Below are positions 13,604 to 16,940 of a stretch of 64,000 nucleotides of DNA, in pieces (the stretch's first letter is position 1; each line of letters starts with the position of its first letter). This DNA is from Tsukamurella conjunctivitidis. GTDB taxonomy: Bacteria > Actinomycetota > Actinomycetes > Mycobacteriales > Mycobacteriaceae. Below the pieces are notes generated by a model. The model was not told the DNA's origin, made no database searches, and saw only the letters and a program-made list of their open reading frames with translations. The position numbers and the translations under genes were made by a program. The stretch covers positions 1 to 64,000 of the forward strand of contig NZ_VIGX01000005.1 of NCBI RefSeq assembly GCF_007858475.1. Direction: 5' to 3'.

Positions 13604-14746
13604 TCAGGCCGCAGGGACGGGGAGCGGGCCGGTGTACCGGGCCGAGGGGCGGATGATCTTGCCCTGACGCACCTGCTCGAGCACGTTCGCCGTCCAGCCG
13701 ACGACGCGGGCGACGCCGAAGGTGGGCGTGAACATCGACGGCGGCAGACCGACCTCGCCCATCACCACGCCGGCGTAGTACTCGACGTTCGCGTAGAGCC
13801 GCCGGCCCGGCTTGAGCTCGTTGATGGCGGTCTCGATCTCCGTCTCCACCCGCAGGGCCTGGCGGACCAGGGGTGAGTCGTACCGACGGGCGACGCCCTT
13901 GAGCAGCTCTGATCGCGGATCGTGCGTGCGGTAGACGGCGTGCCCGAAACCCATGATGCGCTCGTCGCGCCCGATCTTGCCGCGGACCCACTCGCGGGTG
14001 TTCGACGGGTCGCCGATCTCGTCGAGCGCCGCCAGCGCACGGCTCGGCGCACCGCCGTGCAGCGGGCCGAGGAAGGCGCCCAGTGCGCCGAGTAGGCAGG
14101 ACGTCATGTCCGAGCCGGTCGAGGCGATCACTCGGCCGGCGAAGGTCGAGGCGTTGAAGCCGTGGTCGATGGTCGCGACGAGGTAGGTCTGCAGCGCCGC
14201 GGCGTCGGCGGGATCGGTGTTCCCCGTGGCCATCCGGAGGTAGTCGGCCGCGTGCCCGGCGTCCGGGTCGGCTTCCGCGGGTTCCTCGCCCCGGGCCAGC
14301 CGGTGCGCCGCCGCGAGGATCGTCGGCGTCACGGCCGCGGATCGCAGCGCCGCCGCCGTCCGCTCGTCCTCCGGCAGGTCCATGAGGGGCCGGTCGCCGA
14401 GCCCGAGGGCGGCGAGCGCCACGCGCAGCGCGTGCATGGGCTCGGTCCCGGAGTCGACGGTCGCGCGCAGCAGGTCGACGGTGCGCCCGTCGAGGGGGCG
14501 GAGCGCGCCCACCTGCTTGCGGAAGGTGTCGTCGGCAATGCCGCTGTCGGCGTCTCCGGCCCCCTCGGGCACGGTGCCGAACAGCATGAGGTGCCACGCG
14601 TCCTCGAAGGAGACGGTCCGTGCGAGTGCGGTCGCATCGTGGCCGCGGTAGTGGAAGAAGCCCTCCTCACCTCGGACGTCGCCGAGTTCGGTGTCGGTCA
14701 CGATGACGTTCTTGAGCCCCGCCGGGGCGATGAGCGGTGTGGTCAT
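13604..14746 (-). CDS. Citrate synthase (type 2 / methylcitrate synthase-like)
   Basis: This 380-residue enzyme condenses an acyl-CoA with oxaloacetate. It begins with AGLKNVIVTDTELGDVRGEEGFFHYRG, typical of the short bacterial citrate/2-methylcitrate synthases. The two catalytic His motifs are present (GPLHGGAP near residue 227 and GFGHAVYRTHDPR near residue 268). The third catalytic position, usually Asp in NVDFY, is Glu here (NVEYYAG near residue 321). The ATG at 14746 fits the family; longer readings would run through the divergent promoter region. It faces a second, HTH-containing citrate synthase 54 bases away. Confidence 0.88.
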   Translation of the reverse strand: MTTPLIAPAGLKNVIVTDTELGDVRGEEGFFHYRGHDATALARTVSFEDAWHLMLFGTVPEGAGDADSGIADDTFRKQVGALRPLDGRTVDLLRATVDSGTEPMHALRVALAALGLGDRPLMDLPEDERTAAALRSAAVTPTILAAAHRLARGEEPAEADPDAGHAADYLRMATGNTDPADAAALQTYLVATIDHGFNASTFAGRVIASTGSDMTSCLLGALGAFLGPLHGGAPSRALAALDEIGDPSNTREWVRGKIGRDERIMGFGHAVYRTHDPRSELLKGVARRYDSPLVRQALRVETEIETAINELKPGRRLYANVEYYAGVVMGEVGLPPSMFTPTFGVARVVGWTANVLEQVRQGKIIRPSARYTGPLPVPAA

Positions 14747-14763
14747 GGCACGAGTGTGAGCGA

Positions 14764-14775
14764 TGTTGATCAACA
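14764..14775. promoter_or_regulatory. Palindrome 1 between the citrate synthase genes
   Basis: TGTTGATCAACA is a perfect 12-bp palindrome, 17 bases upstream of the leftward citrate synthase ATG. It shares the GTTGAT/ATCAAC half-sites with palindrome 2, and their centres are about 21 to 22 bp apart, two helical turns. This arrangement suits cooperative binding of a dimeric repressor. Confidence 0.6.
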
Positions 14776-14783
14776 CTTGCAAT

Positions 14784-14798
14784 GTTGATTGAATCAAC
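14784..14798. promoter_or_regulatory. Palindrome 2 overlapping the HTH-citrate synthase promoter
   Basis: GTTGATT-G-AATCAAC is a perfect 7-1-7 inverted repeat. A TTGAAT hexamer inside it (14789-14794) is six bases before the GTG at 14801, so the site overlaps the likely leaderless -10 of the HTH-citrate synthase gene and could mediate autoregulation. Confidence 0.6.
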
Positions 14799-14800
14799 CC

Positions 14801-15874
14801 GTGGACAGGTGGATCACGACCTCCGAGGCGGCGGAACGCCTCGGGGTCAAGCGCGGGACGCTGTACTCCTACGTCAGCCGCGGTGTGCTGCATTCACGGC
14901 GCATGCCGGGACAGGCGGAGTCGCTCTTCGACCGCACGCAGGTGGATTCGTTGGCGGCGGCCAAGCACGACGGCCGGCGGGAGGCCGACCGGCTACTGCG
15001 GTTCCGCGCCGTGACCACGCGCGTCTCCGCCCTGCGGGGTGACTCACTGCGCCTGCGCGGCCGGCCGATCGCCCGCGTGTGCGCGGAGATGGGCTTCGCT
15101 GCGGCGGCGCGCTTCGTCCTCGAGGCCGACGCTGCGGTGCCCCCGCCCGTCGTCGATCTCGCGGCCGCGCGGGCGGTCGTGCTCGAGCGCCGTATCCCGC
15201 TGGCGGTGGCGCTGCTCGCGGCGCACGATCCGCTGCGCGCGGATCGGTCCGCGGTCGCCGAGCGCACGCTCGGCCTGCTACCGGTGCTCGCCGAGCTGGT
15301 GCCCGAGGTGCGCCTGGAACACCCGTGGGTGCAGGCCCAGTCGACGTGCCTCATCGACAACGGGCTCGCCGCGTCGACCACGGCGGCGCGCGTCGCGGCC
15401 TCCTCGCGGGCCGGTCTGTACGACGCCCTCCTCGCCGGCTACGGCGCGATGGCGGGCGTGCTCCACGGCGGGGCCCCCGCCGCCGCGTACGCCATGCTCG
15501 GGCGGGTGCTCGAGGGCGGCGATGTGGACGCGGCGATCGCGGACGCGTCGTGGGGCGGCCACCTCGCAGGTTTCGGCCACATCGTCTACACGGGGGAGGA
15601 TCCGCGGGCCACCGTCGTGCTCGGGATGATGCGCGCCGAACTGCCGGACGCGCCCGCCCTGCAGGCGGTCTCGGTACTCGCCGAGCGGGTCGGCCGGGCG
15701 GTGAACATCGACCTGGCGGGCGCGGCCGTCGCGCACGCGCTGGGGCTGCCCGCGCGCGCCACCGAGGTGCTCTTCCAGTACGGGCGCACGGTCGGGATGG
15801 CGGCGCACATCGCCGAGGAGTACGAGGAGTCGCCCCTGCGTTGGCGCGGCGCGAACAGCGGCGGCGTGCGCTGA
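14801..15874 (+). CDS. Citrate synthase domain fused to an N-terminal helix-turn-helix
   Basis: The product is about 357 residues. Residues 4-50 form a MerR/excisionase-like winged HTH: ITTSEAAERLGVKRGTLYSYVSRG, then a wing with RRMPGQAESLFDR. After a short linker a citrate synthase fold begins. It keeps all three catalytic residues: LHGGAP near residue 221, GFGHIVY near residue 257 and Asp in NIDLAG near residue 303. It could be an enzyme that regulates transcription, or a sensor built from an enzyme. I chose GTG 14801 because it gives a leaderless start. A TTG at 14789 would add four residues and put palindrome 2 inside the gene. Confidence 0.8.
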   Translation: MDRWITTSEAAERLGVKRGTLYSYVSRGVLHSRRMPGQAESLFDRTQVDSLAAAKHDGRREADRLLRFRAVTTRVSALRGDSLRLRGRPIARVCAEMGFAAAARFVLEADAAVPPPVVDLAAARAVVLERRIPLAVALLAAHDPLRADRSAVAERTLGLLPVLAELVPEVRLEHPWVQAQSTCLIDNGLAASTTAARVAASSRAGLYDALLAGYGAMAGVLHGGAPAAAYAMLGRVLEGGDVDAAIADASWGGHLAGFGHIVYTGEDPRATVVLGMMRAELPDAPALQAVSVLAERVGRAVNIDLAGAAVAHALGLPARATEVLFQYGRTVGMAAHIAEEYEESPLRWRGANSGGVR

Positions 15875-15887
15875 GGGTTGTGGTTCA

Positions 15888-15906
15888 CTAGGTTAGCCGA
15901 ACCTTA
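15888..15906. promoter_or_regulatory. IdeR/DtxR-type iron box
   Basis: CTAGGTTAGCCGAACCTTA matches the IdeR consensus at about 16 of 19 positions. It starts 14 bases after the preceding stop and ends 11 bases before the ATG of the binding lipoprotein, so it could block transcription or early elongation under iron-replete conditions. Confidence 0.75.
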
Positions 15907-15917
15907 GGAGCTGTCGT

Positions 15918-16940
15918 ATGCCCATCGTCCTTCCGACGGTCCGCCCGACCAGCCGCCGCGACCTCTTCCGCGGGGCCGGCCTGCTCGGCGCCGCAGCCCT
16001 CGCCGCCGCGTGCGGGACGGAGGGGAACGCCCCCGAGTCGGGGCGGCGCACCGTCGAACACGTGCGGGGGAGCACGGTCGTCCCCGACGATCCGCAGCGC
16101 ATCGTCACCGTCGGCTTCAGCGACCAGGACCCCGTGCTCGCGCTCGGCGGGCGCCTCGTCGGCGTCACGGACTGGTACGGGGACTACGAGTACGCGACGT
16201 GGCCGTGGGCGCAGATGGCGCTGGGCGATCAGAAACCCACCGTATTGAACAAGGGGAAGTTCACCGGCACACCCGATTACAAGTACGAGGAGATCGCGGC
16301 GCTGAAGCCCGACCTGATCCTCGGGTTGTACACGAAGATGAGCCCGGACCAGTTCGAGCAACTCTCGCGGATCGCGCCGACGGTGGGCCCGCCGGCCGGG
16401 CACAAGGAGTTCACGGCGCCCTGGGACGTGGCGACCCGGCTCACCGGCGACGCGCTGGGGCGGCGCGACGCCGCCGACCGGGCGATCGCCGCGGTGAACG
16501 AGAAGATCGCGCAGGCCCGCGCCGCACATCCGGAGTTCGCCGGGCGCACGGCCCTCGTCGTGGAGCGGTTCAAGCAGGGATCGAGCTTCGTGCGCTCGCC
16601 GGGCGACCCGCGGTCGCGACTGCTCGCCGCGCTCGGCTTCACGGTGCCGGAGGTCGCGGGCAGCGCGGGCAGCGGTAACGACGGCGTGGATCTCGCGGAC
16701 GAGCGGATGGCCGAGCTCGACCAGGACGTGCTGGTGTGGAACGTGGGGAGCGCGCCCTCGCGGAAGGCGGAGGTCGAGGCCCTGCCGATCTACCGGACGG
16801 TGCCCGCGGTGCAGGCGGGACGGTCGGTGTTCGTCGACGACCCGCTGGTGTCCGGGGCGTGGACCTGGGGAACCGTGCTGAGCATCCCGACGGTGGTGGA
16901 CGCACTCGCGAGTAGCATCGCGCCCGTGATGAAGCGATGA
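15918..16940 (+). CDS. Iron-siderophore ABC transporter substrate-binding lipoprotein
   Basis: This 340-residue FecB/FepB-type protein has an N-terminal SRRDLFRGAG twin-arginine-like segment and a lipobox LAAAC near residue 32. Other family features are PQRIVTVGFSDQDPVLALGG, the WYGDYEYATWPWA insert typical of actinobacterial siderophore receptors, IAALKPDLILGLY and a second-lobe LGFTVPE. It should bind ferric hydroxamate- or catecholate-type siderophores. No ABC permease is adjacent. An AGGAG site lies eight bases before the ATG. The stop overlaps the AlkD-like gene (ATGA), an unexpected operon partner. Confidence 0.9.
   Translation: MPIVLPTVRPTSRRDLFRGAGLLGAAALAAACGTEGNAPESGRRTVEHVRGSTVVPDDPQRIVTVGFSDQDPVLALGGRLVGVTDWYGDYEYATWPWAQMALGDQKPTVLNKGKFTGTPDYKYEEIAALKPDLILGLYTKMSPDQFEQLSRIAPTVGPPAGHKEFTAPWDVATRLTGDALGRRDAADRAIAAVNEKIAQARAAHPEFAGRTALVVERFKQGSSFVRSPGDPRSRLLAALGFTVPEVAGSAGSGNDGVDLADERMAELDQDVLVWNVGSAPSRKAEVEALPIYRTVPAVQAGRSVFVDDPLVSGAWTWGTVLSIPTVVDALASSIAPVMKR

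Follow-up and report, generated by a model that had tools for sequence, protein, structure and literature searches.

The window, a stretch of 64,000 nucleotides from Tsukamurella conjunctivitidis, carries a gene for a citrate synthase (CS) domain fused to a helix-turn-helix (HTH), which lies divergently to a gene for a plain CS. Comparison of this locus with its homologues leads us to think it likely that the fusion protein (referred to as HTH-CS) is an autoregulated one-component transcription factor that acts locally and has a CS-type effector domain. A sequence-only reading of the same DNA had proposed an enzyme acting as its own regulator. The regulator half of that proposal was strongly supported by the comparison, while the sensing of oxaloacetate or an acyl-CoA is what the conserved active-site residues suggest. 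The features of the locus are collected in the table.

Table. Features of the HTH-CS locus (positions in the window; residues numbered from the GTG at 14801)
Feature	Positions	Strand	Basis
Plain CS gene, divergent, Glu at the D362 position	13604..14746	-	Full-length Citrate_synt, 327.5 bits
Inferred partner promoter: TTGCAA 14777-14782, 18 bp, CACACT 14753-14758	14753..14782	-	By comparison with TTGAC-N17/18-.A...T at related loci
Upstream palindrome TGTTGATCAACA, a second site particular to the clade	14764..14775	.	Shuffle test; kept within the clade; lies within the putative promoter spacer of the facing gene
Conserved operator: TGCAA (a degenerate half-site) followed by GTTGAT-TGA-ATCAAC	14778..14798	.	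Genome-unique; conserved in the genus and beyond
Second palindrome GTTGATTGAATCAAC	14784..14798	.	Part of the widespread operator
HTH-CS fusion gene	14801..15874	+	ORF with GTG start, alternative TTG at 14789; HTH and CS domains above Pfam cut-offs
Excisionase/MerR-like HTH, recognition helix TLYSYVSRG	14810..14953	+	HTH_17 and TIGR01764 above cut-off
CS-type domain, probable effector (start approximate)	14996..15871	+	Citrate_synt 134.9 bits; AF2 model pLDDT 89.9
Asn187 replacing the oxaloacetate-binding His (E. coli H229)	15359..15361	+	Alignment of 154 HTH-CS
Catalytic His222 (E. coli GltA H264)	15464..15466	+	Kept in 153/154 aligned HTH-CS
Catalytic His260 (E. coli H305)	15578..15580	+	Kept in 151/154 aligned HTH-CS
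Catalytic Asp304 (E. coli D362)	15710..15712	+	Kept in 153/154 aligned HTH-CS

Profile searches placed an excisionase/MerR-like HTH ahead of the CS domain, as had been read from the letters, and both domains scored above their cut-offs. The HTH (residues 8-55 when numbered from the TTG at 14789) gave 31.5 bits with HTH_17 of Pfam (cut-off 27), 32.5 bits with TIGR01764 excise (cut-off 28.8) and 23.1 bits with the broader MerR_1 (cut-off 21.6); the cut-off of PF00376 MerR was missed in the profile search (19.4 vs 28.2 bits). For Citrate_synt (PF00285) the cut-off is 27 bits, and the best stretch of the match ran from residue 180 to 348, at profile positions 169-351 of 357. With the NCBIfam CS models, the fusion stayed far under the cut-offs (101.4 of 332 and 81 of 421 bits). 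The pLDDT of the AF2 model is a mean value, and the 50 best PDB matches to this model were all (methyl)citrate synthases, with TM of 0.48-0.65 by query length. The GTG at 14801 is the likelier start, its frame being seen throughout the genus in the same-genus loci; the alternative TTG falls within the second palindrome. The fusion was found at near-full length in 16 of 16 same-genus genomes searched, its own included, and T. tyrosinosolvens has the same neighbourhood as the window. In the own genome (5.07 Mb), CS-family places number five in all.

The starts of the fusion gene and of the facing CS gene are 54 bp apart. Both of the palindromes that had been noticed between the genes are there, with their centres 21.5 bp apart. 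When up to one mismatch was allowed, each matched once in the window, against 0.00 (first) and 0.01 (second) matches expected from 100 shuffles. In the whole genome of 5.07 Mb, TTGATNNNATCAA occurred a single time, at this locus, and its reversed control not at all. GTTGATCAAC also occurred a single time, but its reversed control occurred twice, so that the uniqueness of the first palindrome is of little weight alone. One mismatch being allowed, 13 places were obtained in the own genome (12 of them with a single mismatch) against 2 for the reversed control, and no wider regulon is claimed. Rfam gave no RNA element in 14500-16000.

The sequence-only reading had named the alignment of the palindromes over homologous loci as its own test, and the operator was found to be kept where the genes are divergent elsewhere. 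Only the second palindrome belongs to the widespread operator; the first was seen in the Tsukamurella, Gordonia and Intrasporangiaceae relatives. A genus-level sample consisted of 18 loci (L006-L023), one per genome, from 16 same-genus genomes and the distant G053 and G040. Exact GTTGATCAAC was present in 10 of these 18 and exact GTTGAT-N3-ATCAAC in 9; by eye, the rest had near copies of the second site, and L023 had no clear first site. A scan of named genomes yielded at least 522 relatives from at least 596 stretches. Among the best 80 of these relatives a CS gene faced the fusion divergently in 74, the other six being L072, L084, L085, L097 (same direction), L099 and L104.

In the named actinobacterial loci (Streptomyces, Kribbella, Amycolatopsis, Acidimicrobiales and others) the operator mostly reads approximately GTCAAyrTTGATTsAATCAAy. 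Facing CS and site could be scored in 126 of 130 actinobacterial loci. The three-half-site operator GTCAA-N2-TTGAT-N3-ATCAA, taken as core or palindrome, lay upstream in 105 of the 113 with a facing CS. It was still present in 9 of the 13 in which the DNA examined showed no facing CS, and the link between partner and operator is therefore loose. As 7 of the 13 cover only 0.9-1.5 kb upstream, they give a weak test of whether loss of the facing CS entails loss of the operator. L024, L123, L138 and L143 had neither site nor facing CS within the 0.9-1.5 kb upstream examined. It may be noted that in one actinobacterial family, f34, six loci (L130, L131, L134-L137) have an altered left half-site, GTAGATATATTGATT or similar, which is possibly a co-evolved operator.

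The enrichment was assessed for 155 non-identical HTH-CS loci, with the 300 bp upstream set against the rest of these loci (1.04 Mb) as background. The core TCAAYNTTGA was present in 115 of the 155 upstream regions (0.28 sites expected) and the palindrome TTGAT-N0-8-ATCAA in 112 (0.51 expected); one or the other occurred within 300 bp upstream of 140 HTH-CS genes, the locus counts not being independent because Streptomyces predominate in the sample. Neither was seen at 15 loci; at some of these, degenerate sites can be made out by eye. The strict pattern GTCAAYRTTGATN{2,8}ATCAAY was found in 16 of 197 genomes of the class, once in each, and the reversed control pattern had one match. Thirteen of the 16 matches lie 8-215 bp before the fusion gene. 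The remaining three (one in G243, and one homologous place in G155 and G110) lie inside ORFs, in genomes for which the DNA examined showed no HTH-CS gene, and are therefore probably due to chance. The own genome is missed by the strict pattern because the left half-site reads TGCAA there, and many other fusion genomes are missed as well.

HTH-CS genes were also found on plasmid records of Proteobacteria and Deinococcus. One query matched 252 named plasmid records and another, run at a stricter limit, 69; these counts include ordinary CS. From outside the Actinobacteria 25 loci were taken, picked for diversity, and core or palindrome preceded HTH-CS in 22; of the 18 that have a palindrome, 17 show it as TTGAT-N7-ATCAA. 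All 16 annotated divergent loci of this set had a site, and in 13 of them the facing gene was not a CS. A CS faced the fusion in Chelatococcus and two Agrobacterium, and a CoA transferase in two Azospirillum, Comamonas antarctica and Ewingella. An MFS or GudP transporter followed by a 2-hydroxyacid dehydrogenase was found in Caballeronia, two Thioclava (near-copies of each other) and Paraburkholderia. The facing gene was a 2-hydroxyacid dehydrogenase in two Comamonadaceae, DUF2332 in Roseomonas and Pseudoroseomonas, and a pyruvate carboxyltransferase in Deinococcus. Since the site persists when the facing gene changes, it follows the HTH protein and not the CS partner. Most of the facing genes with a recognisable function act, judged by name, on 2-oxo acids, 2-hydroxy acids or CoA esters, so that a 2-oxo acid or an acyl-CoA fits as ligand.

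No site was seen in three of the 25, namely two annotated codirectional loci (Burkholderia cenocepacia and Paraburkholderia sprentiae) and the unannotated L168. The Burkholderia/Paraburkholderia group L164, L168 and L200 is without the operator, the gene in L164 and L200 standing behind codirectional SDR-MFS-VOC genes; this group is perhaps a rewired or enzyme-only branch. A phage origin was considered and dropped: nine viral-contig stretches matched the peptide pattern and none encodes a relative, and the 10 listed of 17 phage records matched the CS part alone.

When read from the facing gene, the left half-site of the operator is TTGAC, a -35-like element. Of 94 actinobacterial sites, 65 had a.A...T hexamer after 18 bp and 23 had one after 17 bp; all remaining spacings between 13 and 23 bp together gave 7 (0-3 each). 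As Streptomyces predominate, these do not amount to so many independent cases. In 21 non-actinobacterial sites the spacing was 17 bp in 8, 18 bp in 3, 16 bp in 3, and 13, 14 and 20 bp in 1, 2 and 2, so that these promoters match the -10 spacing only partly. A consensus promoter scan of the locus called no promoter, for the fusion or for the partner, and the promoter claims are based on conserved spacing instead. The first reading had also placed a palindrome over the likely -10 of the fusion gene. A -10-like TTGAAT (14789-14794), which ends 6 bp before the GTG, does lie in the second palindrome, but that scan did not call it. For the partner, the analogy would place the transcription start near the ATG, and the message is perhaps leaderless.

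MerR operators sit inside the promoter spacer. A spacer mechanism of the MerR type was not adopted here, as the widespread operator overlaps the facing -35 and extends upstream from there instead of occupying a long spacer, and the inferred spacers are of 17-18 bp, compared with the 19-20 bp given for MerR family regulators (PMC8113463). The clade-specific palindrome at 14764-14775 is an exception and does sit inside the inferred spacer.

For residue counts, 154 non-identical HTH-CS were aligned to E. coli GltA (sequence from an annotated record), the active-site roles and the numbering of H264, H305, D362, R314, R387, R407 and H229 being assumed. The catalytic His, His and Asp that had been seen at the outset are retained in the window fusion, which also has the oxaloacetate-binding arginines as R269, R329 and R347. 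Among the 154, R314 is kept in all, and R387 and R407 in 153 each. L028 accounts for one miss at each of the five incomplete positions (gaps, and Pro at R407), and L139 and L142 are the other two at H305. The window fusion is without the full oxaloacetate-binding set, the H229-type His being replaced by Asn187, a change that the first reading had not mentioned. At this position there are 129 His, 20 Asn, 4 Gln and 1 gap, with Asn in the Tsukamurella/Gordonia loci and L022, and Gln in Caballeronia, Thioclava and two Paraburkholderia (L159, L169, L193, L202). It was observed that Gln coincides, where annotated, with the transporter and 2-hydroxyacid dehydrogenase neighbours; it may be a lead to a different ligand. 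The E. coli N232 position is Ala in 122 of the 154. The recognition helix is near-constant, TLYAYVSRG or close to it, with few variants such as YAYASRG and YANVSRG (42 aligned rows; 45 rows inspected). In a quick tree of 72 CS domains, 48 HTH-CS formed one clade against 24 other CS (SH-aLRT 99). As the HTH-CS group is a clade of its own, the partner CS is not a recent duplicate of the fusion.

The plain CS that had been said to face the fusion was borne out by its full-length Citrate_synt match; it also falls under the NCBIfam CS cut-offs, more narrowly (317 of 332 and 306 of 421 bits). At the D362 position, 122 partner rows have 120 Glu, 2 gaps and no Asp. The presence of Glu in place of the catalytic Asp raises the question of whether the facing protein is a full-rate citrate synthase. 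A CitA-like protein of the own genome (L004) likewise has Glu at this position.

These residues bear on a reading of the fusion as a working citrate or methylcitrate synthase that both catalyses and autoregulates, the HTH being a feedback device. The catalytic residues and the three arginines, retained in 151-154 of 154, are more than a pure sensor might need, and the fusion has the canonical Asp that is seen in none of the partner rows. The NCBIfam scores far under the cut-offs point the other way, as do the Ala at N232, the Asn or Gln in place of the oxaloacetate His in 24 of 154, and the non-CS facing genes of many Proteobacteria. We regard such a dual role as possible, if rather unlikely.

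For the fusion as a one-component transcription factor, the following mechanism may be proposed. The N-terminal HTHs, presumably paired through the CS dimer, would bind the operator of three half-sites in the region of the divergent promoters. This operator shares bases with the facing gene's -35 and, in Tsukamurella, also with the fusion gene's own start region. The HTH pair would read two of the three half-sites, and the facing -35 would be covered or left free according to which two are read. The CS domain, with its substrate pocket kept, is probably the effector domain. When it takes up oxaloacetate or a similar 2-oxo acid, an acyl-CoA, or ligands of both kinds, the HTHs may engage the half-sites differently. 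The signal would come from this pocket, which is kept except at H229, changed in certain clades, and at N232, where a change is common. In this way the protein would set its own expression and that of the facing gene (an auxiliary CS in most Actinobacteria seen), with one regulator, one or two sites and local control; the sign of control and the autoregulation are what we infer from the arrangement. A more far-reaching version, which we consider improbable, would have an ancient family of at least three phyla with a catalytically intact CS as sensor. Substrate closure of the dimer would shift the HTHs between overlapping pairs, TCAA-N2-TTGA covering the facing -35 and TTGAT-N3/7-ATCAA freeing it, and the clades would have retuned the ligand via H229 for different 2-oxo-acid/acyl-CoA operons.

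Regulator binding to what appears to be the same intergenic region has been reported in Streptomyces. In S. coelicolor, MtrA binds between sco5831/citA3 and sco5832/citA4, which are putative citrate synthases (PMC12323332); in S. albus, RspA1 binds between the facing slnwt_1427 and slnwt_1428, 194 bp apart, the latter being called distinctive (PMC7411085). By arrangement and predicted site, SCO5831/5832 are very likely the same pair as here, and slnwt_1427/1428, matched by description, very probably so. The palindromes might then be owned by another regulator (MtrA, GlnR or RspA1), with no role there for the HTH. The binding of MtrA and RspA1 was seen by EMSA, and GlnR controls citA4 in Saccharopolyspora (PMC10704036). 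The predicted S. coelicolor MtrA site, TTGACTTAACTGTCCA, differs, however, from the TTGAT-N3-ATCAA operator, which is found with HTH-CS in Proteobacteria and Deinococcus too, where the facing genes are different, and ownership by another regulator is thus very unlikely. Still more improbable is it that the fusion is a subunit of a mixed complex with the facing CS and its HTH a structural leftover, for although the divergent pairing is stable, the recognition helix is one of the least variable stretches and the facing gene is not a CS in most of the annotated divergent non-actinobacterial loci.

The passages on SCO5831/5832 and slnwt_1427/1428 in these reports make no mention of an HTH, an operator or autoregulation. 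The S. erythraea citrate synthases were reportedly treated by Liao et al. in 2014. Abundance or expression of SCO5831 appears in further reports (PMC9739823, PMC8981147, PMC7324645). Caulobacter CitA is described as a CS acting in cell-cycle control, and the terms 'helix-turn-helix' and 'HTH' are absent from the main text of that report (PMC7083601). We recognised no description of an HTH-CS regulator in the open-access literature, most subscription papers lying outside the search. Taken with the loci above, this points to an undescribed family of gene regulators with a borrowed metabolic enzyme as sensor, common to soil actinobacteria, proteobacteria and Deinococcus.

With the CS/2-methylcitrate synthase family (PF00285; M. 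tuberculosis CitA structures) the fusion shares fold and active-site residues, but it adds the N-terminal HTH, scores far below the NCBIfam CS cut-offs and forms a separate clade. With MerR/excisionase-type proteins it shares the HTH domain by three of the profiles, but it misses PF00376 and has a CS effector domain. MocR/PdxR/GabR proteins join a GntR HTH to an aminotransferase fold, and BirA and PutA are further enzyme-derived regulators; in these, the enzyme-derived domain senses substrate, and the gene is often divergent to its target. The fusion is likened to them by working principle, with another HTH and another enzyme fold, and no homology is claimed. If the proposal holds, the fold of a central enzyme would serve as the sensor of a transcription factor and tie expression directly to the oxaloacetate/acetyl-CoA node. 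Streptomyces, the source of many antibiotics, have the pair, which has so far been read there as additional citrate synthases. Because the operator is conserved, the idea of a regulator can readily be tested, and the varied facing genes offer a route to the ligands.

Beyond the fusion gene, an inverted repeat, TAGGTTAGCCGAACCTTAG, is present at 15889-15907, directly before a gene at 15918 (annotated in T. tyrosinosolvens as an iron-siderophore substrate-binding protein); it resembles an IdeR/DtxR iron box.
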